64,000 nucleotides of DNA from Rhizobium sp. 11515TR. GTDB lineage: Bacteria; Pseudomonadota; Alphaproteobacteria; Rhizobiales; Rhizobiaceae. Under the pieces are notes generated by a model, which saw only the letters and a program-made list of their open reading frames with translations, was not told where the DNA came from and ran no database searches. A program made the position numbers and the translations under genes. The stretch lies in the NCBI RefSeq assembly GCF_002277895.1, contig NZ_CP022999.1, positions 496,001 to 560,000 on the forward strand, read 5' to 3'. This document shows, piece after piece, positions 12,915 through 38,341 of this stretch. The stretch's first letter is position 1; every line of letters starts with the position of its first letter.

Positions 12915-13097
12915 TTATCCTGTCTCGTTGTCATCGCTCTCAGAAACGGGCTTTCGGAGGATGGGCTTCGGAGTCCGGTCTCCAACCTTGACTTTGATAC
13001 GTCTTCCAAGTGGTCGAAAGTCTGGTCCGAGAGCAGAGCCAAACGAGCTCCCCTTCGACGTTTGGCTATCGTCATGCATTTTCTTTTCGTCAGACAT
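12915..13097 (-). CDS. Small charged protein at the end of the AAA-protease operon
   Basis: A 60-residue protein beginning MSDEKKMHDDSQTSK, acidic at both ends with a basic centre (RPLGRRIKVKVGD). It starts 20 bp after the phosphoesterase stop; AGGAG lies about 14 bases before the ATG, and a TTG at 13121 that overlaps the previous stop is an alternative start. I do not recognise a family. Its position makes it a likely last gene of the leftward operon. Competing short frames overlap it, so confidence is limited. Confidence 0.4.
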   Translation of the reverse strand: MSDEKKMHDDSQTSKGSSFGSALGPDFRPLGRRIKVKVGDRTPKPILRKPVSESDDNETG

Positions 13098-13117
13098 TGC
13101 TCTGGTGTCCGCTCCTA

Positions 13118-13888
13118 TCAACCGATCTCTACAACCATTTGCGGATCATAACCCGTATGCTCACCTGGATATCCCCGCGGATTGCACACAACCCGCGTGC
13201 GGGCGATTATGTAGTCGCTCTGATTATGCAGATGCCCGTGCACCCATAAATCAGGACCGTGAGCTGCAATCATGTCGTCGAGGTTCGATGCGTAGCAGGG
13301 GCTCAGCGGATCACCAATGAAACGCGGCGAGAGAGACCGCCAGCTCGGTGCATGATGTGTGACAACCACAACTTTGCGATCCTGCGCAACGGCAAGCGCA
13401 CCATCCAGAAAAGAGGTGGCCTCCACATGCTTTCGATAAAGGTGGATCGGCTTCAAGCGTCGGTATGGATTTCTCGACCACTTGATCTTCCGATAGTCAT
13501 TCATGCCACTTTCGGCCGCAGCCATTGCCAATATGGGATCTGAACCGAGAAGCCGATAGTCAGTCCACAATGTGGTGCCCAGGAAAAGGACACCTCCGAT
13601 AATGGCGGAGTCATTCTCAAGGTAGTAGAATCCGGGATGCCGCACGGCAGTCTCCCGTGCGCGATCGATGCTTTCGATGAGGGCTGCTCCGTAGGTCTCG
13701 TGATTGCCAGCGACAAAAACCACGGGCATCTTTGGCAAGACGTTTGCCGCGAGCCATTCAATACTGGGGACAATGCCCTTGTTGAGGATATCACCCGCGC
13801 AAATCATGATGTCTGCTTCCGGCGGTTCCGTCAGGAAACGAATTGCGCCGAATTCGAGATGCAGGTCCGAAGCGATCCAAGCCTTCAT
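13118..13888 (-). CDS. Calcineurin-like metallophosphoesterase
   Basis: A 256-residue metallophosphoesterase of the calcineurin superfamily. All five metal-binding blocks are visible: SDLHLEF at residue 7, GDI near 32, GNHE near 61, the THHAP block and GHLH near 217. It has no signal peptide. Family members cleave phosphomono- or diesters, including nucleotides and nucleic acid ends; the substrate is unknown. Its ATG overlaps the stop of the AAA-protease gene by four bases, which indicates translational coupling and a shared role. Confidence 0.9.
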   Translation of the reverse strand: MKAWIASDLHLEFGAIRFLTEPPEADIMICAGDILNKGIVPSIEWLAANVLPKMPVVFVAGNHETYGAALIESIDRARETAVRHPGFYYLENDSAIIGGVLFLGTTLWTDYRLLGSDPILAMAAAESGMNDYRKIKWSRNPYRRLKPIHLYRKHVEATSFLDGALAVAQDRKVVVVTHHAPSWRSLSPRFIGDPLSPCYASNLDDMIAAHGPDLWVHGHLHNQSDYIIARTRVVCNPRGYPGEHTGYDPQMVVEIG

Positions 13889-15783
13889 GACGTTTTCTCC
13901 CCATCGAGCGCATGCCGGATTTCCGCCGCCGACAGCTCCTGCCGCTCAGACAAGAGCCGTGCCAGCGCCTCAACTTGTACCCGTCGTTCCGCAAGGATTT
14001 CGGTCGCTCTCGCTAGCTCCGTGTCCAGTCGCTGCCGCACGGTGCCCTGTAGCTGACGATCTTGACGGCGCATGTTTTCCCATGGTCTCTGGCCGTATCC
14101 CATGTCCATCAGAAGGTCATCGCCGAAGCCCAAACTCCTTTCCATCATGGTAGCCGTGTCATTTGCTAAACCAAGGTCGCCTTTCGCATCGCCGCCCGCC
14201 CCCGTGGAGTGGTCTCCGAGGATGACCCGTTCAGCTGCCATCCCTGCCAGAAGGATCGCGATCTGGTCGCGGAAATGGCAAGCCTTCCCCATGTAGGGAA
14301 TGAGATCCTGAAACTGCGTTTCACCGAGATTGCCGTAGGCTGCTTTCGAGCTTTTGCCGCTCCGGATCCACACCTTCACGAGGGCTTCCGGTCGCAGAAC
14401 GTGTCCGACAACCGCATGCCCGATTTCGTGAACCGCAAGGCGAAACCGTTCTTCCTCTGTGAATGGAACGCTCGGCGGCATCGCATCGGTGACGTCAGTT
14501 GCCCGGATCACGGCCCGTCCTGATTTTCTCGCAAGGCGACGCGCATCGCGGGCAAGCTTTTCGATATCTGCCCCTGTCCAACCTTCAGATTGGCGGACGA
14601 ACTCCGTCAAATCACCCAGTTCGTGGCCTGGCAAATGATACTCGATAATCGCCCGCCGCGCTTCCTCGTCGGGCAACGGGATTTCGACGACCTTCTCCAA
14701 ACGCCCGGGTCTCAGAAGGGCGGGGTCGATGCGGTCCGCATCGTTCGTGGCGGCAACAACAACCACACCCTCCCTTCCCCCGGCCGGATCAAGGCACTCC
14801 AGAAGCCCGTTGATAACCTGTCTCTTGTAATCATGGTGGGGATCGTTCTGATTTGTCCGGCGGTCGCCGAAGCTATCGAACTCGTCGAGGAAAAGGATGG
14901 CCGGACGCTCATCCTGAGCCCTTTTGAACGCCCCACGCATTGCCTTTAGCATGTCACCAAGATGGCCCTTGGCCTGCCACGCAGCCGCCGATTCAGAGAT
15001 AAAGTTGACTCTGCAACTATTCGCGAGTGCCAAGGCGTAGGTAGTTTTTCCGCACCCAGGAGGACCACACAAGACAACGCCGCGGTCGACGTCGCGCCAC
15101 TCGATCTCGCCTTGTTGCCAAAGACGCAGGTCCTCAGCCAACTGCATGCCCCAAACTTTCGCCTCCCCATAGCCAGCAAGGTGTTCGAGACGCGTTTTCG
15201 CATTTTCAGGCCGCGGAGGCGGCTCCGACTCCCGAGTCGGCTGCGTCCTGCTTTGCATTTGGCGGACGACACGCGAAATCGGCCTTCCACGGCGCATGGC
15301 CGCGTGAATATCATGCAAGCTCTGAGTGGCAAGGTAGCTGGCCTCCTCGGCGGTCATCGGCAAACTGAGTTCTCGGGCCGCGGCCATCCACAGTTTCGGC
15401 TCAGGCGGATGAAGCACAATGCGTTGGTCGAGGACCATTCCCAATTCGGCAGAGATCTGGGTCTCATCACTGTAGAAAAGCACTGCTCGGTTGGTGTTCC
15501 TGAATCTCTGGACCAAGCCCCAACCCGACTGGGAAATGGCTTTGGCACAATCCACGGAAACCGGCCGGTCACCGTTCTCGGAAACTGCATAGAAAGGATC
15601 GAGAAGGTCGCGGGTCGCCGCTAGATAAGCTTCAAAGTCATCAAGACTCTGCAGCTTGACGGCAACAACAAAGCAGGTGGCTGAAAGAAACGGCCTAATC
15701 GCCCGCCTCACCGCCATCTGTGCGACGATGATTGGAAGACTGAGGGGCTGTCGTTCCGAACGCAACGAAATTAACGATCTCAT
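13885..15783 (-). CDS. Soluble FtsH-like AAA+ ATPase with M41 zinc-peptidase domain
   Basis: A 632-residue protein. A unique N-terminal region (1-200) precedes an AAA+ module: Walker A GPPGCGKT (240-247), Walker B ILFLDEFD (296-303), sensor ATND, and arginine fingers in LRPGRLEK. A C-terminal M41-type peptidase follows, with the zinc site HEIGH (452-456) and the distant aspartate ligand in GDAKGDLGLAND (about 536). Unlike true FtsH it shows no clear transmembrane pair, so it is probably cytosolic. It should unfold and degrade specific substrates, which are unknown. ATG at 15783 has AGAGG six bases upstream. It is the second gene of a four-gene operon. Confidence 0.9.
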   Translation of the reverse strand: MRSLISLRSERQPLSLPIIVAQMAVRRAIRPFLSATCFVVAVKLQSLDDFEAYLAATRDLLDPFYAVSENGDRPVSVDCAKAISQSGWGLVQRFRNTNRAVLFYSDETQISAELGMVLDQRIVLHPPEPKLWMAAARELSLPMTAEEASYLATQSLHDIHAAMRRGRPISRVVRQMQSRTQPTRESEPPPRPENAKTRLEHLAGYGEAKVWGMQLAEDLRLWQQGEIEWRDVDRGVVLCGPPGCGKTTYALALANSCRVNFISESAAAWQAKGHLGDMLKAMRGAFKRAQDERPAILFLDEFDSFGDRRTNQNDPHHDYKRQVINGLLECLDPAGGREGVVVVAATNDADRIDPALLRPGRLEKVVEIPLPDEEARRAIIEYHLPGHELGDLTEFVRQSEGWTGADIEKLARDARRLARKSGRAVIRATDVTDAMPPSVPFTEEERFRLAVHEIGHAVVGHVLRPEALVKVWIRSGKSSKAAYGNLGETQFQDLIPYMGKACHFRDQIAILLAGMAAERVILGDHSTGAGGDAKGDLGLANDTATMMERSLGFGDDLLMDMGYGQRPWENMRRQDRQLQGTVRQRLDTELARATEILAERRVQVEALARLLSERQELSAAEIRHALDGEKTS

Positions 15784-15820
15784 GGTGGGCCTCTTTGGAA
15801 TCGATGATGAAGGGGCAGGC

Positions 15821-16435
15821 TCAGCCCTTTATTCGTCTCACCATCGTTTCAGGCCCAATGAGCGCGTCATCAAGCTCGATTTCCAGCAAGCCCTGAAGAA
15901 TGAGTGAGGCAAGCGCGGCGACGGGCTGCGTTTCCCTGATCACCCGCATGCAGTCCGCAAATGAGAGTAGGCCCTCCTCATCCAACGCGCCAAGAAGGCG
16001 CACACGATCCCCGAGCGGCACGTTGTGCCCGCTGTAACGGAGCAGATCGCGGGCGTTTTTCAATCGGTAGCCGTCATAGATTTCCGAGCTGTCGACCTGG
16101 CGATACCGATAGCCCAACATGCTCGCCGCCTCGCAGAGAACTTCCGAGCAAAGCACTGGCTTTCGGTCCGGCGCATCCAGCATCCACCGAACTCCGGTGC
16201 TGTCGACCATCTCGAAATCCGACGCGTATTTGGGCGCGGCCAGATGTAGCGGCGGCGGAGCTGAATTCCACGAGATAACCGCGGCATTCAAATCGAGAAT
16301 GCATGCGAGATCCCGCGCGGCTTTCGAACGGAAATTGCTTACAGGTGGAGATTTCAGCGACGGATGTAGGTTTGGAACCTTGAGCGAGCTCGCCGTTAAA
16401 CGGCGTGTATTGCCAATATGATCCTGTGATGCCAT
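15821..16435 (-). CDS. TnsA-like protein with degraded nuclease motif, first gene of operon
   Basis: A 204-residue protein. Residues about 40-90 align by eye with the TnsA nuclease fold: SKAARDLACILD, then KYASDFEMVDSTGVRW and DAPDRKP, where TnsA has a glutamate, PDF aspartate and a lysine. The glutamate position is not evident and the lysine context is altered, so catalysis is doubtful. The C-terminal half (NARDLLRYSGHNVP onward) resembles the TnsA helical domain. ATG at 16435 is supported by GAGG about seven bases upstream. The gap to the AAA-protease gene is 37 bp, so they are likely cotranscribed. The family call is inference and a search could change it. Confidence 0.45.
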   Translation of the reverse strand: MASQDHIGNTRRLTASSLKVPNLHPSLKSPPVSNFRSKAARDLACILDLNAAVISWNSAPPPLHLAAPKYASDFEMVDSTGVRWMLDAPDRKPVLCSEVLCEAASMLGYRYRQVDSSEIYDGYRLKNARDLLRYSGHNVPLGDRVRLLGALDEEGLLSFADCMRVIRETQPVAALASLILQGLLEIELDDALIGPETMVRRIKG

Positions 16436-16896: not shown

Positions 16897-19800
16897 ATGT
16901 CCGATTCCGAAGTAGCTCGTGTTATTCTGCTCGATGAACCCTCTTCTGAAGATCTCTTTCACGGCAAAGGGCATGACCGCACGGCATCGGCGTTAGCGGC
17001 GGCAATCCGCGACTTCCGTCGGGCCGATCGAGCTATTGGTCTCGACGGCGCTTGGGGTTCTGGAAAATCGAGCGTGGTTGGCATCGCGGAGCGCAAGCTT
17101 CAGGACGGGAACGGCAAAACGAAATATCATTTCTTCACTTTCGATATCTGGAAATCGCAAGGCTCTGCATTCCGACGCTCGTTTCTCGAAAGGCTTGTCT
17201 CATGGGCGAAGGCGAGCTTTCCAAACAAGACCAAAACACTGACCGAGATTGAGAAGAATATCAAAGGCAAGACCCGCGAGGTCGATACTAACAGTAGTCC
17301 ACGCCTCGGTTTGTACGGAATTGGCGTACTCCTGTCTGTTCCCCTGCTTCCCGTCTATCTACTATGGAGCAAGGATATTTTCGACAAGCTGGCCAATAAG
17401 AACAACGAAGCCGACTTTCTTTGGTCGTGGCCGATGGTCTTTATCTATGTATTTCTGTTGATCACACTCGTCACCGCCGCGTTCAAATATCGAAAACTTC
17501 CAATCGCAGATGGCGGGCGTTGGGAAAGAATTGGCCTGGCGATCTCGCAGACCCTTCTCATCGGCGCTAAACAATTCGAACGCCAGACGGTCAAACAATA
17601 CATCCGGGAGGTTGACCCGAATGACTTCGAGTTCCAATCCGTGCTGCGCGAGATATTGGGAGCAATCCAGGATGATCACACCCGGATCATCATCGTCCTG
17701 GATAATATTGACCGCCTACCCAGCGAGGAAATCGATGAATATTGGGCGATGGTGCGCTCTATTTTTTCGCGGTCCCACACGGACGGTAGCGGAACGAAGC
17801 ATAGTCATATAACGGCTATCGTTCCCTACGATCGAAACCACATTGCTCCCGCAAAGGAGCAGAGCAACTCCTCCACCCTTCGTGCAAAGGAGCTTTTCGC
17901 GAAGACCTTCGACGAGGTACTAAACGTAGCACCACCCGTAATGTCCAACACCCGCGAATTCTTTGACCAAAAGGTCCGCCAGGCGCTCCCGCGGTTTGCC
18001 GACGAGGACGGCCTATTCCGGGTCTATCTCATCTTCAACTGGCTGATCGATAAGGAAGGAGGAAAGGCAACTCCCCGCCAGGTGATAGCCTTTATCAATG
18101 AAGTGAGCGGTCTCTTTGCGCTGCACAGCGGCCGTATCCCACTTCCAACAGCCGCTGCCTATCTTGCCGTTCGCGACAGACTGGAAGCGTCGCCTTCCCT
18201 TCTGGCGAAAGAGAAGATCGTCGACGACCAGCTCAGGTCGCTGGCCGCCGACGCCAGCCTGGATAAGCATCTGGCCTCAATTCTCTTCAACGTCGAGCCG
18301 GACTTGGCCTTCCAGCTTCTTCTCGACGCAGAACTGAGGAGTGCGATTGGCGAGAGCACGCCCGATCGTCTTATTGCACTTTCGAACTCTCCAGGTTTCG
18401 GTGTGCGCATAGACGAGGTGTTTGGGAACGGCGTCGCTGAGTGGAGGAGCGCAGGGAGATTGGCCACCGCGATCGGTAACATTTGCGACCTGCTCAATAC
18501 CTACAACGGTGACGGCGCTGACCTTGTGCGACAGTCTGCCATCGAGGCGTTCCTAGCGACAGAGGCCATTAGTACATTTGAAGAAGTGCGGTTTCGGAAA
18601 CTTATCCGCACGTCAGCAAAGGAAGAGCGAACGAAGATCATCGAGCACCTCCTCTCGACGATCGTGGCCAGAATTGGGCCGCCCGATAAGATCGATGATG
18701 TCACAGGCAGTCGGTTGGCAAGTCTTTTCTCAACGATCGCGGAGGAAGTCCATGCTCTGGACCCTACCATCGGACTCGAAGGGATTTGGAAAAGAGTCGC
18801 GCTTCCTGCAGATTTGCTGCTGATATTCGGCTTCGCGCTTGCTTCATGCACGCTCGAAGTCACTTTGGCAAAGCTTGCGAAGCCCACCCTCGACCTCTCG
18901 GCGGAAGCGGAGTTCCTGAAACAAGCTGCCATTGATCGGCCTGGGGATACCTTCTTGGTCCTGGGCGAGTTCAGAAAGGCTGGAATCCTCACCGATGACT
19001 GCCTACTCACGATCAGCACCAGACTTTCGACAGCCTTGATGGAGGAAAGTGAAGATAACGATCTATTTGCGTCGCAAGCCAAGCTGATGGGCAAAGCATG
19101 GGCACTAATGTCTTTGGCGGCCCGCAAGAAGAATGATCTTTCGGCGTTGCAAAAGGATGCGACATTCTACGAAAACATGCACGCCGCCTTCTCGAAAAGC
19201 CCGGAAAGCGAGGCTCTACCCTTTGCACTTCTCGTCTTAGAAGAGCCGTACATCGGCGGGAAACTCGGCATACCTGTTCGTATCGCGCCAAATGGGCAGG
19301 CGATTTCTGCTGCACAAGAGGAGTTTGCCTGGCTCACTGGTGTGCTCAACGGAGACACTCTTCTAGCTGACAAGCAGATAGACGTCTTCACGAATGAACT
19401 GAATTCGTACTCTCGCGTGCCACATTGGATATTTTACGGGCGCGACAATCCGAACAATAAGCTCGCTCCTGCGGTGACCCGCTCTGCGTTTGCGAATTCG
19501 AAGATCCCATGGATTGCTTCCGTAGACATCATACGGATCTACGCTTACCTGAAGACAATTCTTGAAGCCGAGATCGAGACAATTCTTCCTGGTCTTGGGC
19601 AACGCATAGCGGCAGGATCTTTGGATAAGTTGACAATTGACGGTCTGCCCCTCCAACTGTTGTCGGACACGGTCAAGTATGCACAAACTGAATGGAAAAC
19701 GTTCCATGATCGCACCGCCGCGGTTCTGGATTCAGTATCAAAAGACGAGTGGCTCGGGCATTTCATCGCTGGTGACAATTACTTCCAGCTTCTCATCGCG

Positions 19801-20355
19801 AAGGTGCAATCCTCAGGCTATTGCCCGGATTCAACCGAGATCAGAGATAGCCTCTTACGTTTCGTACTTGGCGTGCTGGACGGCACCAATGCCCCGGCAC
19901 AGGCGATATACGATCCGGTTTTGGATGCCTTCGACTCAAACTATCATCTCGAGTTCTTCAGGCTCGTCCGCGAAAAGGTAAGTGGTGTATCGGTCGAAAC
20001 GATAACCACGGCCGCCCAAATCATGCCTAAGTTGATGGTGAGGGTTATCCAGTCGGGCGAAAAGCAAAAAGCTGAAAAAGAGAATCTTATACGCTTTATT
20101 CTCTGGCCTGCATTGGAAGGAGGAGTATTCACAATCATCGACGCCTTCCTCGAACTTCCGAGAAAGGTCGTGGCAGATTTTGTGCGCTCCTCCGACAAGA
20201 GTGTACAGGATACATTGGAACCTGCTTTGCGGGCCTTGTTGAAGCGCAGCGACTACCAATACGTCCGACGCGTGACCGAACATCTTCAGGGCAGAAGGTC
20301 GAAAACCCTTATCCAAACACTCTTTGGCCTGCCCGCTAAGGACGATGACGAATAG
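16897..20355 (+). CDS. Large KAP-family P-loop NTPase with two membrane segments
   Basis: A 1152-residue protein. The N-terminal KAP NTPase domain has Walker A GAWGSGKSS (51-59) and Walker B in IIIVLDNIDRLP (about 265-276). Two hydrophobic segments (about 133-153 and 174-194) interrupt the domain between the two motifs, as in many KAP proteins, and would anchor it at the inner membrane with the NTPase inside. Residues after about 400 form a long, mostly helical region without a recognised domain. KAP NTPases include phage-exclusion proteins; a defence role here is inferred from family and context. The shine-dalgarno site is weak. A PIN-domain gene follows 267 bp later. Confidence 0.85.
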   Translation: MSDSEVARVILLDEPSSEDLFHGKGHDRTASALAAAIRDFRRADRAIGLDGAWGSGKSSVVGIAERKLQDGNGKTKYHFFTFDIWKSQGSAFRRSFLERLVSWAKASFPNKTKTLTEIEKNIKGKTREVDTNSSPRLGLYGIGVLLSVPLLPVYLLWSKDIFDKLANKNNEADFLWSWPMVFIYVFLLITLVTAAFKYRKLPIADGGRWERIGLAISQTLLIGAKQFERQTVKQYIREVDPNDFEFQSVLREILGAIQDDHTRIIIVLDNIDRLPSEEIDEYWAMVRSIFSRSHTDGSGTKHSHITAIVPYDRNHIAPAKEQSNSSTLRAKELFAKTFDEVLNVAPPVMSNTREFFDQKVRQALPRFADEDGLFRVYLIFNWLIDKEGGKATPRQVIAFINEVSGLFALHSGRIPLPTAAAYLAVRDRLEASPSLLAKEKIVDDQLRSLAADASLDKHLASILFNVEPDLAFQLLLDAELRSAIGESTPDRLIALSNSPGFGVRIDEVFGNGVAEWRSAGRLATAIGNICDLLNTYNGDGADLVRQSAIEAFLATEAISTFEEVRFRKLIRTSAKEERTKIIEHLLSTIVARIGPPDKIDDVTGSRLASLFSTIAEEVHALDPTIGLEGIWKRVALPADLLLIFGFALASCTLEVTLAKLAKPTLDLSAEAEFLKQAAIDRPGDTFLVLGEFRKAGILTDDCLLTISTRLSTALMEESEDNDLFASQAKLMGKAWALMSLAARKKNDLSALQKDATFYENMHAAFSKSPESEALPFALLVLEEPYIGGKLGIPVRIAPNGQAISAAQEEFAWLTGVLNGDTLLADKQIDVFTNELNSYSRVPHWIFYGRDNPNNKLAPAVTRSAFANSKIPWIASVDIIRIYAYLKTILEAEIETILPGLGQRIAAGSLDKLTIDGLPLQLLSDTVKYAQTEWKTFHDRTAAVLDSVSKDEWLGHFIAGDNYFQLLIAKVQSSGYCPDSTEIRDSLLRFVLGVLDGTNAPAQAIYDPVLDAFDSNYHLEFFRLVREKVSGVSVETITTAAQIMPKLMVRVIQSGEKQKAEKENLIRFILWPALEGGVFTIIDAFLELPRKVVADFVRSSDKSVQDTLEPALRALLKRSDYQYVRRVTEHLQGRRSKTLIQTLFGLPAKDDDE

Positions 20356-28943: not shown

Positions 28944-29525
28944 ATGAAAAAATCCCGCAAATCGAATCTCCGCAAATACGCGGATATGCGCCTCAACAAT
29001 GAACCCGGAGAGGTGATCTCAAACGATCGGCTACATCGCCATATCAACTGGCTTGCCCAAGACGAACGAAACTTTGGTCCTGCCACAGCATTGGAGATGT
29101 TCGGGCAAGTCTTCCCGTCCTCATCTTCGGTGCCGCTATGGCTCCGTCCCGGAACGCCTAAACAGTGCTTTGTAAACGCGACAGCCATCGCACTTTCTCG
29201 CGACGATGCCGTGTACGCCGAGGGATACGCGCTGTGCGAGGACGTTCCGGTACCGCTTCACCACGCCTGGGTCATCAATCGGAGGGGGGCGGTCATCGAG
29301 ACCACCTGGGAGCTCGGTCCATCGCATTGTTACCTGGGAATTCCATTCAAAACTGATTTCGTTGCCCAGGTTCTGCTGGAAGATGGGCAATGTGGTCTTC
29401 TGGATCCTCCGCTGATGCGTCGCCGAGCCAGCTCTCCCGATCAATTCAGACAAATCGTCGAGTTCGGGTTCGGAACTAAAATCGAACCGCTTCCCGCATC
29501 GGCGATCGGGAGGACGCTGCGATGA
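28944..29525 (+). CDS. Hypothetical protein with conserved-looking Cys and His blocks
   Basis: A 193-residue protein beginning MKKSRKSNLRKYADMR. The central region reads CFVNATAIAL, then YAEGYALCEDVPVPLHHAWV, then VIETTW and YLGIPF. A cysteine at the head of a helix followed by HAW and a further polar residue is the arrangement seen in papain-like and NlpC-like cysteine hydrolases, so an enzymatic role is possible but unproven. ATG at 28944 is preceded by AGGAAG. It lies just upstream of the tnsA gene and may be cargo of, or an accessory to, the Tn7-like element. Confidence 0.65.
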   Translation: MKKSRKSNLRKYADMRLNNEPGEVISNDRLHRHINWLAQDERNFGPATALEMFGQVFPSSSSVPLWLRPGTPKQCFVNATAIALSRDDAVYAEGYALCEDVPVPLHHAWVINRRGAVIETTWELGPSHCYLGIPFKTDFVAQVLLEDGQCGLLDPPLMRRRASSPDQFRQIVEFGFGTKIEPLPASAIGRTLR

Positions 29526-30480
29526 TTATCAGCAACGCGACACATCGTTCCGACTACGGAGCCGGCATCAATTTGGTCGGCGATATGGCCTGCAGCACAC
29601 CCAAAGCATGGGGTCGCCGATGGGTTTTCGGACGCAGCAAACCACGTCACTCGCTGCATTTCACCGCAGCGTTCTGCCACCGTCCTTTCAAGATACCCAG
29701 CAATCTAAGGTCATTGAGAAGCAAGAAGGGCTTAACTACCCCGCGCCCGCGTAACTCCACATGCCAGAGGGCTCAGATGCCTGGAATTGATCCGTCATTC
29801 ATCATCGCCGCCATGCTCCAGCGCCGCAATGGGATCGATATGATCTCGAAGGCCTACGAGCAAACAACGGTTTATGCCAAGCCGGACCGCCTCACTCGGA
29901 AACAGCCATCATTTTCAAACGACAATGCCGGTCAGAATTTGCTCAGTGGTGAACCGGATATCGACTGGGACTCAGCATATCCAGAGACTGGTGCGGCGGC
30001 CCGCAAGATTGCCTTGCGCAACAAACCAGGCACCAAACCAGTAGAACATCGCAAGAGCATTGTTACAAACCGCGTTCAGGCGATTGATCCGAACACCAAT
30101 ACCCGTCTTCGCCTGGAGAGCAGTCTTGAGCACGATGCGATGATCATGTTCATGGCCGACCCAAAAGTCGTGGCGATTCAGGCTCAATTCGGTCCCGTAT
30201 GGTTCAAGCGCGAAGACGTCTGGCACAAGCACTACTTCGACCTTTGTGTGGATTACGCCTCAGGCTGCCGTGGCCTTTTTGCCGTCCGCCATCAAAAAAA
30301 AGCAGCCGAAGTCGAGCACGATCTTGAACTCATCCGCAGCCACGACTTGCGCAACCACGCTCACTTCGCACGTGTTCTGACCGAGAAGATCATCACCAGG
30401 CCGGCCGTTTACAGTGCCTCCTGTCAGTACCGGAGCAATACTCCCCACTAGTGCCGTTTGAATCTTCCCCAGGTGCTGCG

Positions 30481-30520
30481 GCCGCCGGTCTTCCGGGGCG
30501 CGCCCCGGAAGACCGGCGGC
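30481..30520. repeat. Perfect 40-bp palindrome inside the IS21 left end
   Basis: Twenty bases starting GCCGCCGGTCTTCC are followed without spacer by their exact reverse complement. It lies between the IS terminus and istA. In RNA it would form a very stable hairpin that could block transcription entering from outside the element. Confidence 0.9.
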
Positions 30521-30565
30521 GCGTCATCGCCGATACTCCTTCCGATGGTCGGAAGGGGGATATTG

Positions 30566-32703
<2,138 letters not shown>

Positions 32704-33009: not shown

Positions 33010-35433
33010 ATGAACATTGCTAACCGTCCCTCAAGTTCAGCATTTACGAAGTTCGCCATCGAACCGGACGATCTAGTTACTGTCTACGGACATCCGATGC
33101 GTCTCGTCGGCCAATCGGGGGAAAATGTCATCCTGCAATCGATCACCGGCAATCTGAAGGCAAAGCCCAGATCGTACAGCTGGCAACTGATCTCCAAGTT
33201 TCTTGGCATGGGCAAACTCGAGATTGAAAAAGGCCATTTCGGCGTGCCTGCCGAAATCAAGCGGTCGCAGAGGGAAGCGTGCCCCGGGCTTGAACCGGAG
33301 ACAGTTTTGCGGGCGCGCATGGTTTCCGAGTTTCTCGCCCAGGAATATGGGGAGGACAACATCAATGAAATTGCTCATCGTTCCAGAAACGACATCGAAA
33401 GATTTATGGCCGTCTTCAAAGTGGAAAACGCGGCACTGATTCAAGAAGCACGACACAGCATTGAAAAGAAGGGCAAAGGTAAGCTCTTCGTGAGCCCGCG
33501 TCAGTTTCTGCGTCTCGTAAAAAAGTTCGAAGATGGACATCTGCAGCCGGAATCACTGGCAGATCGCCGAGCAGGACGCTCTGGCTCCGGCAGCACATTC
33601 ACTCGCGACGAGCTGACCTTTCAGCTTCGTTTCGCCGATGAGTATCGTACGCCTGATAAAAAGACCATCAAGCAATGCTGGCTCGATATGCACTTGGCCA
33701 ACCGCACGCTCATTAAGCAGGGACAGCCCAGCTATAGACTTCCATCGCTTTCGACCTTCCGGAGGTTGGTAAAGGAGGGCAACGACTTTCTTAATGAAGC
33801 AGGTCAATCAACGAACGTGGAGAGAATTAAGCGGAAGTACGATTTTAAACAGCGAGGTCTCCAGCCGGATCGCCCTTTGCAGATCGTGGAGATGGACGAA
33901 CACGAATTCGATCTCATGGTGTTATGCACCAAGAATGGCATCTGGAATTACCTACATCCAGAGGTAAGAGCACGGATCGAGAAGATTCGCAGGGCGTGGA
34001 TTTGCGTGGCATTGGACGCATTCACGCGCTCTGTATGCGGGATGAAAATTCTGAGAGGCAGCCCGGATGCTAGCTCGGCCGTGGCTACCCTTGCGATGGT
34101 CGCACGAACCAAAGACAAAATCGCCGCTTCGGTTGGCGCACTGACAGAATGGCCGCAGTGCGGCACGCCGGAGGCGATCCACACAGATGCGGGAGCGGGC
34201 TTCGTCTCGGCGAAGTTCGAGTTAGCGTGCATGATGTTCACAGGCACCCATCGTATCCCACCATCGAAGCATCCCCACCTGAGAGCAAGGGTCGAGCGAT
34301 TTTTCAAAACTCTCAATCAGAGATACATTCATTTCTTTCAAGGTCGTACGTTCTCCAACCCACTCTTGAAAGATCAGTACGATTCAACAAAGCACGCCAC
34401 GATCACCGATGAGGAATTGTCTGATCTTCTGGTACGCCTCATCGTCGATTGCTACCACAACACCAAGCATCGCTCTCTCGGTATGACGCCACTTGAGGCC
34501 TGGTACCGTGGGTCACAACTTGCGAAAGGCGCAGTTGCTCCGCCACCGAGCGCGCGGGAGTACCGCGAAGCATTTGGAGCTACGCTAACCGTCAAAATTG
34601 GTACTGCCGGGATCGAAATTCTTGGAAATATCTATTCCAGCCCGAAGCTGCTCGAGATCCGGAAAAAATGGTTCGACTCCACGTTAATCGTTCGCATGAG
34701 CGACGAGGATATCTCCACGATTTCTGTCAAACACAAGTTCCTGCACAAATGGATCGACGTGCCCGCGGTTTTCACCGGTCTCAAGGGAACTACACTCGAG
34801 GAGTGGGGAGAAACCGTTCGTTATCTCAAAGAAACCTTTCCCGGTGGGCACGAGCATAGTCAGCAAACTGTGATGCAGGCCATGGCGGCCGTGAAGGAGG
34901 TCATCCGCAAGTCTAAGTCGCGCCCTGGTGTCATTTTGCATACGCCGCTCGAGGAAAAGATCGCTCGGTATCAGGAAACGGCCAACTCCTTCCACTACAA
35001 CCAGCGGCAGGAATACGACTACGGACAGTACATTGGGACTGTGGAGACGAGCGACGACAAGCTTGAGGAATTCTTCGACGACGGTTTCGAGGCGGCGGTC
35101 TTCAATGAAGACAGCGAGAATCCCCTGCTGGGTACCGATGTTAGTAGAATGTTCGAGAAGGCCGACCCATTCGCCCCCGAAGACGGAAGCTTCGATAGAT
35201 CCGCCTTTGTTTCCGACGCCAAGCGCCTGCTTCCTCCCGACCAGCGGGCCGATGACGAAAATAGTACGACTCGTCGCAGCAAAAGGAAGACGGCTCCGCG
35301 GGCCGCCAAGGCGTCCACATTGAGATCGGATAATCCGCCGCCTACTCCTGAAAATGAACCTGTCAGGAGCGAAACCGAACAGACGCAACCAAAGAGCTTC
35401 GGGTTCGAGCGCCGCCCGAGGAGGGAAAAATAA
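33010..35433 (+). CDS. tnsB: TnsB/TniA-like DDE transposase of a Tn7-like element
   Basis: An 807-residue transposase of the retroviral-integrase superfamily. N-terminal DNA-binding domains precede the catalytic core: D296 in VEMDEHEFDL, D393 in IHTDAGAGF and E429 in RARVERFFKT. A Mu-type beta-barrel domain (about 520-600) and a long acidic, then basic, C-terminal tail follow; in Tn7 the TnsB tail contacts TnsC. AAGGAG lies six bases before the ATG. The start overlaps the end of tnsA by 14 bases and the stop overlaps tnsC (TAATG), so the four genes form one operon. The protein appears intact. Confidence 0.93.
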   Translation: MNIANRPSSSAFTKFAIEPDDLVTVYGHPMRLVGQSGENVILQSITGNLKAKPRSYSWQLISKFLGMGKLEIEKGHFGVPAEIKRSQREACPGLEPETVLRARMVSEFLAQEYGEDNINEIAHRSRNDIERFMAVFKVENAALIQEARHSIEKKGKGKLFVSPRQFLRLVKKFEDGHLQPESLADRRAGRSGSGSTFTRDELTFQLRFADEYRTPDKKTIKQCWLDMHLANRTLIKQGQPSYRLPSLSTFRRLVKEGNDFLNEAGQSTNVERIKRKYDFKQRGLQPDRPLQIVEMDEHEFDLMVLCTKNGIWNYLHPEVRARIEKIRRAWICVALDAFTRSVCGMKILRGSPDASSAVATLAMVARTKDKIAASVGALTEWPQCGTPEAIHTDAGAGFVSAKFELACMMFTGTHRIPPSKHPHLRARVERFFKTLNQRYIHFFQGRTFSNPLLKDQYDSTKHATITDEELSDLLVRLIVDCYHNTKHRSLGMTPLEAWYRGSQLAKGAVAPPPSAREYREAFGATLTVKIGTAGIEILGNIYSSPKLLEIRKKWFDSTLIVRMSDEDISTISVKHKFLHKWIDVPAVFTGLKGTTLEEWGETVRYLKETFPGGHEHSQQTVMQAMAAVKEVIRKSKSRPGVILHTPLEEKIARYQETANSFHYNQRQEYDYGQYIGTVETSDDKLEEFFDDGFEAAVFNEDSENPLLGTDVSRMFEKADPFAPEDGSFDRSAFVSDAKRLLPPDQRADDENSTTRRSKRKTAPRAAKASTLRSDNPPPTPENEPVRSETEQTQPKSFGFERRPRREK

Positions 35434-36479
35434 TGTCCGAACAAAGCCGTAACTATCTCTCTCGGGAACTACTGCGTAAGCGGGTAACGGCAAAAATTAT
35501 CGATCGGGCAGCGCTGCTCCAGGATCTGAGTGAGGTTTACGTCACTACCGATCGAGACAGGGAGATGACGATGGAGTTGGAAGTGATGATTGCCCATATG
35601 TTGAACCCGAATACCCGGGCTGGCTATGCTGTAGCCGTTACCGGACCGTCCGGAGCCGGGAAAAGTACTCTGGTCAACCAGAGGCTCGATGCGACGACCG
35701 AGTTCGAGACATTCGATGATGGGTATGGCAACGATGTGGAATTTTGTCTCCGTGTGCAGACACCCTCGTCTTGCACAGCCCTCACCCTCGGTACAGCGAT
35801 CCTTACCGCCTCCGGGTATCCCCTACAGAAGATGAGAGACGAAGACGAGGTCTGGAGGACAGTGCGGAATAGGCTGCAGCGGAAGATGCACAAAGTCATC
35901 TTTCTCGATGAATTCCAGCACGTCCTGAAGGGGTCACAGGCGAAGGGAGCTGCCCATCTAACCAACCAGATCAAGTTGCTTATGCAGGATCCCGACTGGC
36001 CTGTATGGCTAATTATCGCTGGTATTCCGGACATCATGGAGTTCGTCAATCGCGACGTCTGGCAACAGGCGGATCGCCGGATCGGCGAAATCTCTATTGA
36101 TGGGCTCACCGATACAGAGGGCGATATCGAGCAGACTCGAGAGATGATCAAGGTGTTTGCCGAGACCTGCAAGCTCAAACTTGCGCTCCCCCTGCTCGAT
36201 GATTTCATTCGCCAGTTAATGCATGGCGCTTTGTGGCGCTTCGGTATCTCTATCCAACTCACCAAACGGTCGATTGAATCGGCCCTTTGGGACGAGAAGG
36301 GAAATTCATCGCTCAGCCATGCCCATTTCGTCGATGGTTACCGCCGCCTCTCGCGATGCACCAGGGTCAGCAACGTCTTTATGTCTCCCGACTGGCGGCG
36401 TATTCAGCGTGAAATAGGAAGGAATGGCAAACTCACGTCTAGTTTCAAACTTCTCGACCGGGAGCTCGAAAGGCTGTGA
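35433..36479 (+). CDS. tnsC: TnsC/TniB-like AAA+ transposition regulator
   Basis: A 348-residue AAA+ ATPase. Walker A is GPSGAGKST (about 70-78), Walker B is VIFLDEFQHVL (about 153-163), and the sensor region contains IAGIPDIMEF and RRIGEISI. In Tn7-type systems TnsC links target-site proteins (TniQ/TnsD) to the TnsA-TnsB transposase and controls target immunity. Overlaps at both ends (TAATG with tnsB, GTGA with tniQ) indicate translational coupling. No damage is visible. Confidence 0.93.
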   Translation: MSEQSRNYLSRELLRKRVTAKIIDRAALLQDLSEVYVTTDRDREMTMELEVMIAHMLNPNTRAGYAVAVTGPSGAGKSTLVNQRLDATTEFETFDDGYGNDVEFCLRVQTPSSCTALTLGTAILTASGYPLQKMRDEDEVWRTVRNRLQRKMHKVIFLDEFQHVLKGSQAKGAAHLTNQIKLLMQDPDWPVWLIIAGIPDIMEFVNRDVWQQADRRIGEISIDGLTDTEGDIEQTREMIKVFAETCKLKLALPLLDDFIRQLMHGALWRFGISIQLTKRSIESALWDEKGNSSLSHAHFVDGYRRLSRCTRVSNVFMSPDWRRIQREIGRNGKLTSSFKLLDRELERL

Positions 36480-38341
36480 GCGGCTTGTTGCGCGTCCCCT
36501 TTTTCGACGATGAGACGTTGCTCAGCTATTTGGCACGGATGGGGCGTGCCAACGGCCGCAACAGTCTCCGAGGCTTTCTCAACGACATCGGATTTGAGCC
36601 GCTAAGCATTTATCGTGGAAACGAGGCCGAGGTTGCGCGGCTTGCCGAACTCTTCGGGGTGCACCATGGCCGAATGCTAGATGCACGGATTGTCGCAAAC
36701 AGCGACAACACGGTGGGTTTTGCGGGCGGGAGGTTCAACAGGTTTGGTCTCTGGCGAACGAGATTTCGGGTTTGCTCCGAATGTTTGGCGGAGGATGAAA
36801 TGAATCCGTCCAGAATGCCAGGTACCCGCCGATACGCTCGTGCGATTTGGATGCTTTCGAGCGTGAAAACTTGCGTCAAGCACGGGCGAGCGCTTGTCGC
36901 GCTCCATGGAAGCAATTCAATGTGTCCCGACTTTCTTCGGACACTCGATGGAGCTAGCGAGTTCCTCTCGACAGCCTTGGCACCAACGTCTGAGCTGGAA
37001 CCAACTGGCTTTGAGAAATTTGTATCCGAACGTTTGGGAGGAAAGCGGGAGCATGGCACTATCCTTAATGCGGCCTCCATCTCGACTGCAATCGACATGT
37101 GCCAGTTGCTTGGAATGGCGCATAGATTTGGAAGGACGTTCCGCTTTCGCAAGACACCCGAAAATGACCTCCGCGCAGCATACGATTGCGGGTACCGTGC
37201 ACTACTTGGAGAAACTAAGGGAGTTAATTCAGTCTTGGACGCAATTATTGCGACCACGACGAAGAGCAATAAGCGCGCGGGGAATGTTCTCTACGGCAGG
37301 CTTTACCGGGCGCTGCGCAAACAGGAAAGCAGCCACGAATATGATTCCATCAGGGATATGATCCGGCAACACGCCATCGACAGAATGCATGTACTCGACA
37401 ATTCAGAATTCTTTGGATCAGTTGCGGATACCGAGTGGACCAGCATCAGAACGGTGGCTGTTAAAGCCGGACTTGCGGATGAGACAGTTCGTACCTTCCT
37501 GTCATCACAGAATCTAATCCAAGGCGATGCGTCGGCCGGTGAACAGATCTTCGTCGGTGCGGAGGTGGCGCGGATGGCAGTTGAAACTCTCAGCGATTCC
37601 ATCGAGCTTCCTGAAGCGAGCAGGACTCTTGGCTGGAGTATCTTTGAGTGCCGCCGTCTCGTAACAGAGGGCATCATTGTGCCAATTGTTTCGCGTGCCA
37701 AGAAGGGCGTTGGCACCCGCACACGATACTCCCGAGCCGCAATCATCCAGTTGAAAGCCGAGTTGATTGCACCGGGCGGCGAGCAGATTCCCGATCTCAT
37801 CTCGTTGCGAAGCGCGCTCCGCCATTTCCAGGACTCTTCTGGCAAGGTGCTCCGCACGGTCTTTGGTCAGAAACTATCACGTCTGGCGTATGCGGAACGC
37901 GGGTCGCTGCTCGACGGACTAAAGGTAGACCTCTTGGAGCTCAAATCGGTACTGGAACCAGTTCACGGACTCGATGCGAATGCCGTCTGCAAGCGACTGT
38001 CGATCTCTCGCCGGAGTTTGCCTTGGTTGGTGGCCAACGGCGTACTCAGAAGCATGAGCAACACGGGCTATGCGATTACCCTCGAATCGATTGAGCGCTT
38101 TGAACGAGACTATGTCACCGGAATCGGGCTGGCCAACCAAGGTACATTGCATCCAGCGACCATTGGCGCGCGAACGCGGCATCGAAACATCGTACCTGCA
38201 TTCCCGCCAGAAGATGTTTGTAGTCTAGTCTTCCATCGAACGGATGCGCCCTACTTGCTGGCTGACGATCAGGTCGTCGTAAAAGGACGTGCGCGCAAGG
38301 GCAAGAGCTCGAAATCCCGGAGGCAGCGTTCACCCAGGTAA
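36476..38341 (+). CDS. tniQ: TniQ/TnsD-like target-selection protein
   Basis: A 621-residue protein. The N-terminal TniQ domain (1-170) starts PFFDDETLLSYLARMG and carries the zinc-finger pattern CSECL ... CVKHGRAL (C-x2-C and C-x2-H). The long C-terminal part (about 200-600) looks like several helix-turn-helix units (for example CKRLSISRRSLPWLVANGVL), as in TnsD proteins that recognise a fixed attachment site; its length favours site-specific targeting over the short TniQ of CRISPR-associated elements. Start is GTG at 36476, overlapping the tnsC stop. The target site is unknown. Confidence 0.9.
   Translation: MSGLLRVPFFDDETLLSYLARMGRANGRNSLRGFLNDIGFEPLSIYRGNEAEVARLAELFGVHHGRMLDARIVANSDNTVGFAGGRFNRFGLWRTRFRVCSECLAEDEMNPSRMPGTRRYARAIWMLSSVKTCVKHGRALVALHGSNSMCPDFLRTLDGASEFLSTALAPTSELEPTGFEKFVSERLGGKREHGTILNAASISTAIDMCQLLGMAHRFGRTFRFRKTPENDLRAAYDCGYRALLGETKGVNSVLDAIIATTTKSNKRAGNVLYGRLYRALRKQESSHEYDSIRDMIRQHAIDRMHVLDNSEFFGSVADTEWTSIRTVAVKAGLADETVRTFLSSQNLIQGDASAGEQIFVGAEVARMAVETLSDSIELPEASRTLGWSIFECRRLVTEGIIVPIVSRAKKGVGTRTRYSRAAIIQLKAELIAPGGEQIPDLISLRSALRHFQDSSGKVLRTVFGQKLSRLAYAERGSLLDGLKVDLLELKSVLEPVHGLDANAVCKRLSISRRSLPWLVANGVLRSMSNTGYAITLESIERFERDYVTGIGLANQGTLHPATIGARTRHRNIVPAFPPEDVCSLVFHRTDAPYLLADDQVVVKGRARKGKSSKSRRQRSPR

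Follow-up and report, generated by a model that had tools for sequence, protein, structure and literature searches.

The locus described here lies in a 64,000-nt stretch of Rhizobium sp. 11515TR DNA (NZ_CP022999.1, positions 496,001-560,000; hereafter the window), on the replicon that forms contig C2 of a 7.07-Mb genome. It comprises four frames read leftward, which a sequence-only reading had presented as a four-gene operon with a conceivable role in defence. We found that the first two genes, encoding a TnsA-like protein (TA) and an AAA+/M41 zinc protease, form a conserved pair that tracks TnsA-bearing Tn7-like transposons (tnsABC-tniQ) of Rhizobiaceae and of some other Rhizobiales, and that the locus is better understood as a Tn7-associated pair of an apparently dead TnsA and a protease than as a four-gene defence operon. 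The frames, in window coordinates and in the order in which they are read, are:

15821..16435, minus strand: TA, the TnsA-like protein (P0001, 204 amino acids); TnsA-related by profile, with Ala in the Glu column, Asp kept and Lys lost
13885..15783, minus strand: AAA+/M41 zinc protease (P0002, 632 amino acids); no clear membrane segments, ATPase and HExGH sites intact
13118..13888, minus strand: calcineurin-like metallophosphoesterase (P0003, 256 amino acids); an optional third gene
12915..13097, minus strand: P0004, a 60-amino-acid frame; unsupported

As the sequence-only reading had it, consecutive frames are spaced by 37 bp, -4 bp and 20 bp, and all four translate without internal stops (204, 632, 256 and 60 amino acids). 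The P0001 start at 16435 matches a start in the aligned R. leguminosarum relative, whose record annotates a later one. P0003 is a Metallophos protein (Pfam, 55.5 bits) that shows the motifs D-x-H, GD, GNHE, THH and GHxH. P0004 matched no family in scans of Pfam, NCBIfam-type and defence-model libraries; tblastn over 17 loci returned a single 20-residue match (L016, E 0.001), and the similarity of P0004 to the annotated 60-amino-acid frame of that locus was no better than to shuffled sequence. We therefore take P0004 to be a mechanical open frame only.

To follow these genes in other genomes we used three profiles, A1 for TA, A2 for the protease family and A3 for TnsB. With P0001 alone as query, relatives were found in 6 of 297 genomes of the order; profile A1 placed TA in 58 of 394 Rhizobiaceae-family genomes, spread over 32 of 109 genera. 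Among named plasmids, TA occurs in 15 of 72,556 records. At class level the profile matched in 6 of 385 genomes, five of them (all besides the genome of the window) weakly, and at four of the weak loci, in three genomes, the matching gene was a tnsA adjoining tnsB. A scan of viral contigs found no relative. For gene context, 60 stretches around TA places were fetched from the A1 family scan. Of the 76 loci whose TA match reaches 60 bits or more, 59 carry the protease gene at most 600 bp downstream on the same strand, and two more have overlapping frames (61/76 in all); the rest are truncated by contig ends or insertion sequences, or carry no protease gene. In 9 of the 59 pairs a phosphoesterase gene comes next after the protease, at a distance of at most 400 bp. 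Hence the conserved unit is TA plus protease, with the phosphoesterase optional: the order of the first two genes, whose loss outside this strain would have counted against the earlier reading, is kept far beyond it, whereas its set of four was rejected as a unit, given the rarity of the phosphoesterase and the lack of support for P0004. Elsewhere, a small protein family (~110-225 amino acids, cluster 8) stands directly after TA in L093, L095, L102, L105, L112 and L113, before the protease or without one, and a chromosomal protease relative (L200) has a phosphoesterase gene adjacent.

As a TnsA relative, P0001 is barely visible when searched alone. P0001 has no Pfam match and only a weak trace of NF033179 (TnsA_like_Actin; E 0.065, 12.7 bits against a cut-off of 110), a model that matches 11 of 13 TA members at E <= 0.1 (best 6.4e-9), while Pfam matches none of the 13. 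The PADLOC library holds no model for P0001, a PDB sequence search with profile A1 gave nothing sensible, and a single-sequence AlphaFold model of P0001 reached a mean pLDDT (predicted local distance difference test score) of 44.9. Profile-profile comparison bore out the proposed resemblance to TnsA: 65 TA sequences aligned with 54 operon TnsA sequences over 215 columns, including the C-terminal part (hhalign, 99.2%, E 1.3e-18). In this register the position of the catalytic Glu of TnsA is taken by Ala in TA, the Asp is matched by Asp, and the residues aligned with the Lys vary. The Glu, whose absence from P0001 had been suspected, is present in 0 of 65 TA compared with 46 of 54 operon TnsA, Lys or Arg fills the Lys column in 3 of 65 compared with 49 of 54, and the Asp is kept in 65 of 65 and 51 of 54, respectively. 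In a tree all 65 TA form one clade (support 0.985) separate from operon TnsA. By sequence, then, TA is a TnsA homologue by descent that fails the active-site test of the TnsA endonuclease, and it has likely lost DNA cutting; this loss is likely rather than proved, because 62 of 65 TA retain a second Asp, two residues past the Glu column, that could in principle serve.

Two further observations concern these alignments. Six of the 54 operon TnsA (L060, L075, L087, L116, L143 and L013) have another residue in the Glu column, and two more have a gap; some elements may therefore be replicative. Small frames ahead of divergent proteases in L129, L132 and L139 look like the C-terminal part of TA; they gave no HMMER match, and each alone reached 0.3-4.2% probability, the three combined reaching 39.7% (E 0.0003) in register, which is a hint, no more, of a reduced TA at these places.

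The protease was correctly recognised as an FtsH-like ATPase and zinc peptidase. P0002 carries AAA (110.8 bits), AAA lid 3 and Peptidase_M41 (46.9 bits, cut-off 29.9) domains, and the following are invariant in a 13-member alignment: G240, G243, G245-K246 (Walker A), D300-E301, R358, R361, H452-E453, G455-H456 and D536. Residues 1-226 have no Pfam match at E <= 1, in keeping with the novel N-terminus of about 200 residues noted earlier. The hydropathy of P0002, averaged over 19 residues, peaks at 1.28, where the housekeeping FtsH of the same genome reaches 2.36 and 2.07 in its two segments, and over the first 230 residues of 59 paired proteases the peak is 1.92 at most (median 1.18). Judged by hydropathy only, the protease has no clear membrane segment and none of FtsH strength, as had been claimed. 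Its AAA and M41 domains of FtsH type could suggest an ordinary duplicated quality-control protease, hitch-hiking with a decayed TnsA fragment. We consider this very improbable: P0002 scores 194.9 bits with FtsH_fam, whose cut-off is 600, it has no membrane segments of FtsH strength, and TA is full-length in 65 relatives with a coherent loss of the active site, which argues against random decay.

What ties the pair to transposition, and what the sequence-only reading had missed, is its company. Neighbour clustering showed that 27 of 78 loci have one or more of the families tnsA, tnsB, tnsC and tniQ in the fetched flanks. Two arrangements are frequent: tniQ-tnsC-tnsB-tnsA in divergent orientation to TA-protease, and TA-protease-tnsA-tnsB-tnsC-tniQ with all genes on the same strand. 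Eighteen pairs have a TnsB in the stretch, and in 14 of these the pair and the tns genes are separated by 0-3 frames, counted by eye; the window is among the other four. Across 71 TA places (68 of the 80 from the A1 scan plus three from the order-level search with P0001; the 12 omitted were mostly weak or partial), a TnsB (A3) lies within 5, 10, 20 and 50 kb of 17, 25, 34 and 42, respectively; chance alone would put a TnsB within 20 kb of 0.7 places, assuming a uniform genome size of 5.5 Mb.

The same tie holds between genomes. Of 394 Rhizobiaceae-family genomes, TA occurs in 45 of the 53 with a TnsB of at least 330 bits and in 13 of the 341 others (Fisher odds ratio 142, ignoring kinship; the genomes are not independent, at most two TnsB candidates were scored per genome, and counts are among the matches listed). 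The 330-bit threshold was chosen after a gap in the scores was visible, and profile A3 was built from 20 TnsBs of loci fetched for their TA gene, nearly all near the pair; an alternative criterion, TnsB frames of at least 650 amino acids, gave 46 of 60 versus 12 of 334 by hand count. Genomes with only weaker, mostly TniA-type TnsB matches showed no association (3 of 60 versus 10 of 281), and a control of 66 TA-negative genomes held one TnsB above 330 bits. The two also tend to co-occur within genera: in g139, for instance, genomes G313 and G535 have both strong TnsB and TA, and G412, G582 and G621 have neither. Of the eight genomes with strong TnsB and no TA, five hold an A2-type protease (370-727 bits), in four cases on the TnsB contig and ~2-9 kb away, as against seven control genomes in which protease-profile matches reached 211-253 bits only; the housekeeping FtsH of the window's own genome scores 251.7.

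At the level of single loci, L099 and L106 are collinear at 71% DNA identity over a segment that includes sequence upstream of TA and extends almost to the end of tnsB, and M41 and TnsB distances correlate over 18 loci (r 0.46, permutation P 0.0002). On plasmids, relatives of the window's TnsB occur in 70 records; among the matches listed (60 of 70), seven belong to the 15 TA records, and six of the seven Rhizobium records with such a relative, again among the matches listed, carry TA. TA and TnsB lie 11-96 kb apart on these plasmids, two of which (CP090109 and CP090116) are closely related to each other; in NZ_CP021802.1, an eighth TA record, the stretch that was fetched contains a 262-bit TnsB match. 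This tie of the TA-protease pair to TnsA-bearing Tn7-like transposons is new here, and it makes a role in transposition at least as likely as one in phage defence.

Other features recur at these elements. A conserved noncoding segment of 70-97 bp, pairing-rich by eye, lies ~400-500 bp upstream of tnsA, with 80-81% identity in two element pairs (L012:8003-8073 with L071:17878-17947; L084:9959-10054 with L086:10923-11018); it has no Rfam match in L084, L012 or L071, and could be a leader RNA or an end sequence. An Rfam scan found only a tRNA in four stretches. A PIN-domain gene family (cluster 3, 20 loci, e.g. L011:7960-8586 and L084:9091-9711) recurs near the pair, several times between tnsA and TA. 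At L129:12479-13468 and L160:1617-2558, the interval separating a divergent M41 protease from tnsA holds mutually similar proteins of 313-329 amino acids (exonuclease-like by eye).

We arrived, with a confidence that falls somewhat short of even, at the proposal that the two genes encode a module in which a TnsA paralogue, probably nuclease-dead, serves as an adaptor that hands transposition proteins to the AAA+/M41 protease. TA would keep the docking surfaces of TnsA without cutting DNA, bind TnsB, TnsC or the DNA-bound complex, and deliver one of these to the presumably hexameric protease for unfolding or degradation; the outcome would be that the post-transposition complex is dismantled or that transposase is limited, by analogy with ClpX on Mu and with the hypothesised role of ClpX on type I-F CRISPR-associated transposons (CASTs). 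Since the ATPase and peptidase residues of the protease are complete, the simplest reading is that TA guides it to unfold or degrade a partner; that the pair goes with TnsA-bearing and not with TniA-type elements speaks for a Tns protein as this client. More tentatively, the TnsA-bearing Tn7-like transposons of Rhizobiales might possess an extra component near their core, consisting of a dead TnsA adaptor and a dedicated AAA+ protease, as an element-linked counterpart of ClpX.

Several results weigh against such a core role. The pair moves between transposon backbones: L099 and L104 show a backbone swap, with proteases 90% identical and TnsBs 44%, and over the 18 loci TA and M41 co-vary at r 0.78, as opposed to 0.46-0.47 with TnsB (each permutation P 0.0002). 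The pair is found on either side of the tns genes and in either orientation, and 26 of the 71 TA places have no TnsB on their contig. Seven of nine plasmid stretches of 50 kb have no tns gene; on five of those seven plasmids TnsB is 37-96 kb away. Conversely, 24 of 68 strong TnsB places have no TA or detected protease within 50 kb, so that at least 44 of 68 are linked (this count used 67 of the 80 A1-scan TA places, and the protease search covered 29 whole genomes in addition to the class-level one). The remaining three genomes with strong TnsB and no TA (G546, G577 and G617) hold no such protease, and G617, which is 85% complete, not even FtsH. Of the 13 genomes with TA and no strong TnsB, seven hold a family protease and six none (G023, G187, G584, G312, G340 and G397), where TA may be a remnant. 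Among the other alphaproteobacterial genomes, 11 of 341 also have protease relatives, and the short flanks examined around these contain no TA; 12 of the 24 plasmid records with the protease, Shinella, Methylorubrum and Bosea among them, are not TA records. Finally, transposon ends were not found by comparison with relatives or by searching for inverted repeats in the window and, in 29 loci, for clusters of direct repeats that have inverted copies at a distance, so that a position of the pair inside the element is only putative.

The window itself holds a tns set, 13 kb from the operon and divergent from it, which is a common order:

29522..30451, plus strand: tnsA; Glu and Asp columns filled, Arg in the Lys column; no Pfam match; apparently cut short by the IS21-type insertion sequence (inferred)
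30458..32703, plus strand: IS21-type element (transposase and IstB frames), between tnsA and tnsB
33010..35433, plus strand: tnsB; rve and Mu-transpos_C, both below their Pfam cut-offs; also a row of profile A3
35433..36479, plus strand: tnsC, a TniB-family AAA ATPase
36476..38341, plus strand: tniQ

Genes of IS3 and IS66 type lie near this set. The interval between set and operon holds a PIN-domain gene and a KAP-type NTPase; the latter, a 1152-amino-acid KAP-family protein at 16897-20355, is divergent from the operon and weakly similar to PifA and QatA models. That the tns set is disrupted while the operon is intact counts as a further point against a core role. Because IS21 breaks the set, the operon probably either is left over from an element that has ceased to move or exists apart from it. 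Contig C1 carries the pair a second time (L011), with a tns set of its own; this copy lies within a ~56-kb island (G000:C1:2241347-2297296) between the end of a gene for an AAA ATPase (by eye RarA-like) and tRNA-Leu(taa). Synteny with four relatives breaks at the island's left edge; in the comparison with relatives a break near tRNA-Leu was seen as well, and no empty site.

These arrangements bear on another explanation, exclusion between elements, whereby the dead TnsA would join complexes of incoming related Tn7-like elements and deliver them to the protease, guarding the resident element or its site. It would suit a dead paralogue of a transposase subunit that is strongly linked to its own element class, the presence of two strong TnsB places in 15 of the 53 genomes (with two at most scored per genome), and a pair retained where tns genes are broken or distant, as in the window and on plasmids. 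However, exclusion is not absolute in the genome of the window (G000), where each of two tns sets has its own pair, although the window set is broken. We regard exclusion as unlikely.

A larger challenge to the adaptor proposal comes from the genes around the pair, since defence genes are common in its neighbourhoods. They include a CBASS (cyclic-oligonucleotide-based antiphage signalling system) operon with HORMA and AAA genes, an S8 peptidase and AAA pair that is IetAS-like by annotation, a KwaB-like gene, DNA methylases (7 of 97 scanned neighbours, out of 104 picked), and BrxC/D, BrxA, KAP and SIR2 domains. On an R. acidisoli plasmid, ~22 kb (L213:9289-31827) hold tnsA-B-C-tniQ, then a CHAT protein, an S8 peptidase and AAA pair, TA-protease-phosphoesterase and a KwaB-like gene. 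According to the accessible part of PMC8649781, Tn7-like elements carry many defence systems. The strongest rival is thus anti-phage defence cargo: TA would sense phage DNA or protein and release the protease, or direct it, against phage or host proteins, and the transposons would merely carry the pair. This is consistent with the movement of the pair between backbones, with its distance from tns genes in some plasmids, and with the resemblance of the P0002 AAA domain to IetA (98.8 bits) and of the phosphoesterase to PDC-S10 (E 4.8e-12), both in the PADLOC library. Yet a random cargo gene is unlikely to be so tied to TnsA-bearing elements (45/53 versus 13/341) while unrelated to the weaker, mostly TniA-type ones, and unlikely to be built on a TnsA paralogue; moreover, the closest NCBIfam defence model, IteA/IetA, is far under its cut-off (96.5 of 510 bits). 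We view defence as possible and only a little less probable than the adaptor role. If it is the function, a dead transposase subunit and an M41 protease form the basis of the system, whose first protein has no PADLOC model.

We found no description of the TA-protease pair in the literature searched, which included the accessible parts of PMC8649781, PMC10293859, PMC12326709, PMC10910872 and PMC11406308 and lay mostly outside subscription journals; in the main text of PMC8649781, words beginning protease, peptidase, M41 or metallophos occur 0 times. If the pair does act on transposition complexes, as the adaptor proposal holds, Tn7-like elements carry their own machine for disassembly or control, and the removal of complexes after insertion, now tied to host ClpX and limiting CAST tools (PMC12326709, accessible part), would gain a testable natural partner.

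Of the known systems, the defence cargo of Tn7-like elements (PMC8649781, accessible part) resembles the pair in sitting with tns genes amid defence genes, but the pair differs in tracking a transposon class. TA is like the TnsA endonuclease in its profile homology over 215 columns and its conserved Asp, and unlike it in lacking the catalytic Glu (65/65), in having Lys or Arg in only 3 of 65, in forming a separate clade, and in being followed by an AAA+/M41 gene (61/76 loci) rather than by tnsB. P0002 shares the AAA, lid and M41 domains of FtsH, with intact sites, but has a different N-terminal part, no membrane segments of FtsH strength and a score far under the FtsH_fam cut-off. IetAS offers a similar AAA domain, in IetA, together with a protease activity; unlike it, the operon has no S8 protease (no S8 peptidase match among its proteins in Pfam), ATPase and peptidase are joined in one M41-type protein, and the score stays under the NCBIfam cut-off.

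A functional parallel to the adaptor proposal is ClpX. Host ClpX remodels Mu transposition complexes. It also improves I-F CAST integration, where it is hypothesised to disassemble the post-transposition complex (PMC12326709, accessible part). Like ClpX in these cases, P0002 is a predicted AAA+ unfoldase or protease linked to a transposase of Mu/Tn7 type; but whereas ClpX is a host protein and not of the M41 type, P0002 is linked to the element and accompanied by a partner derived from TnsA.

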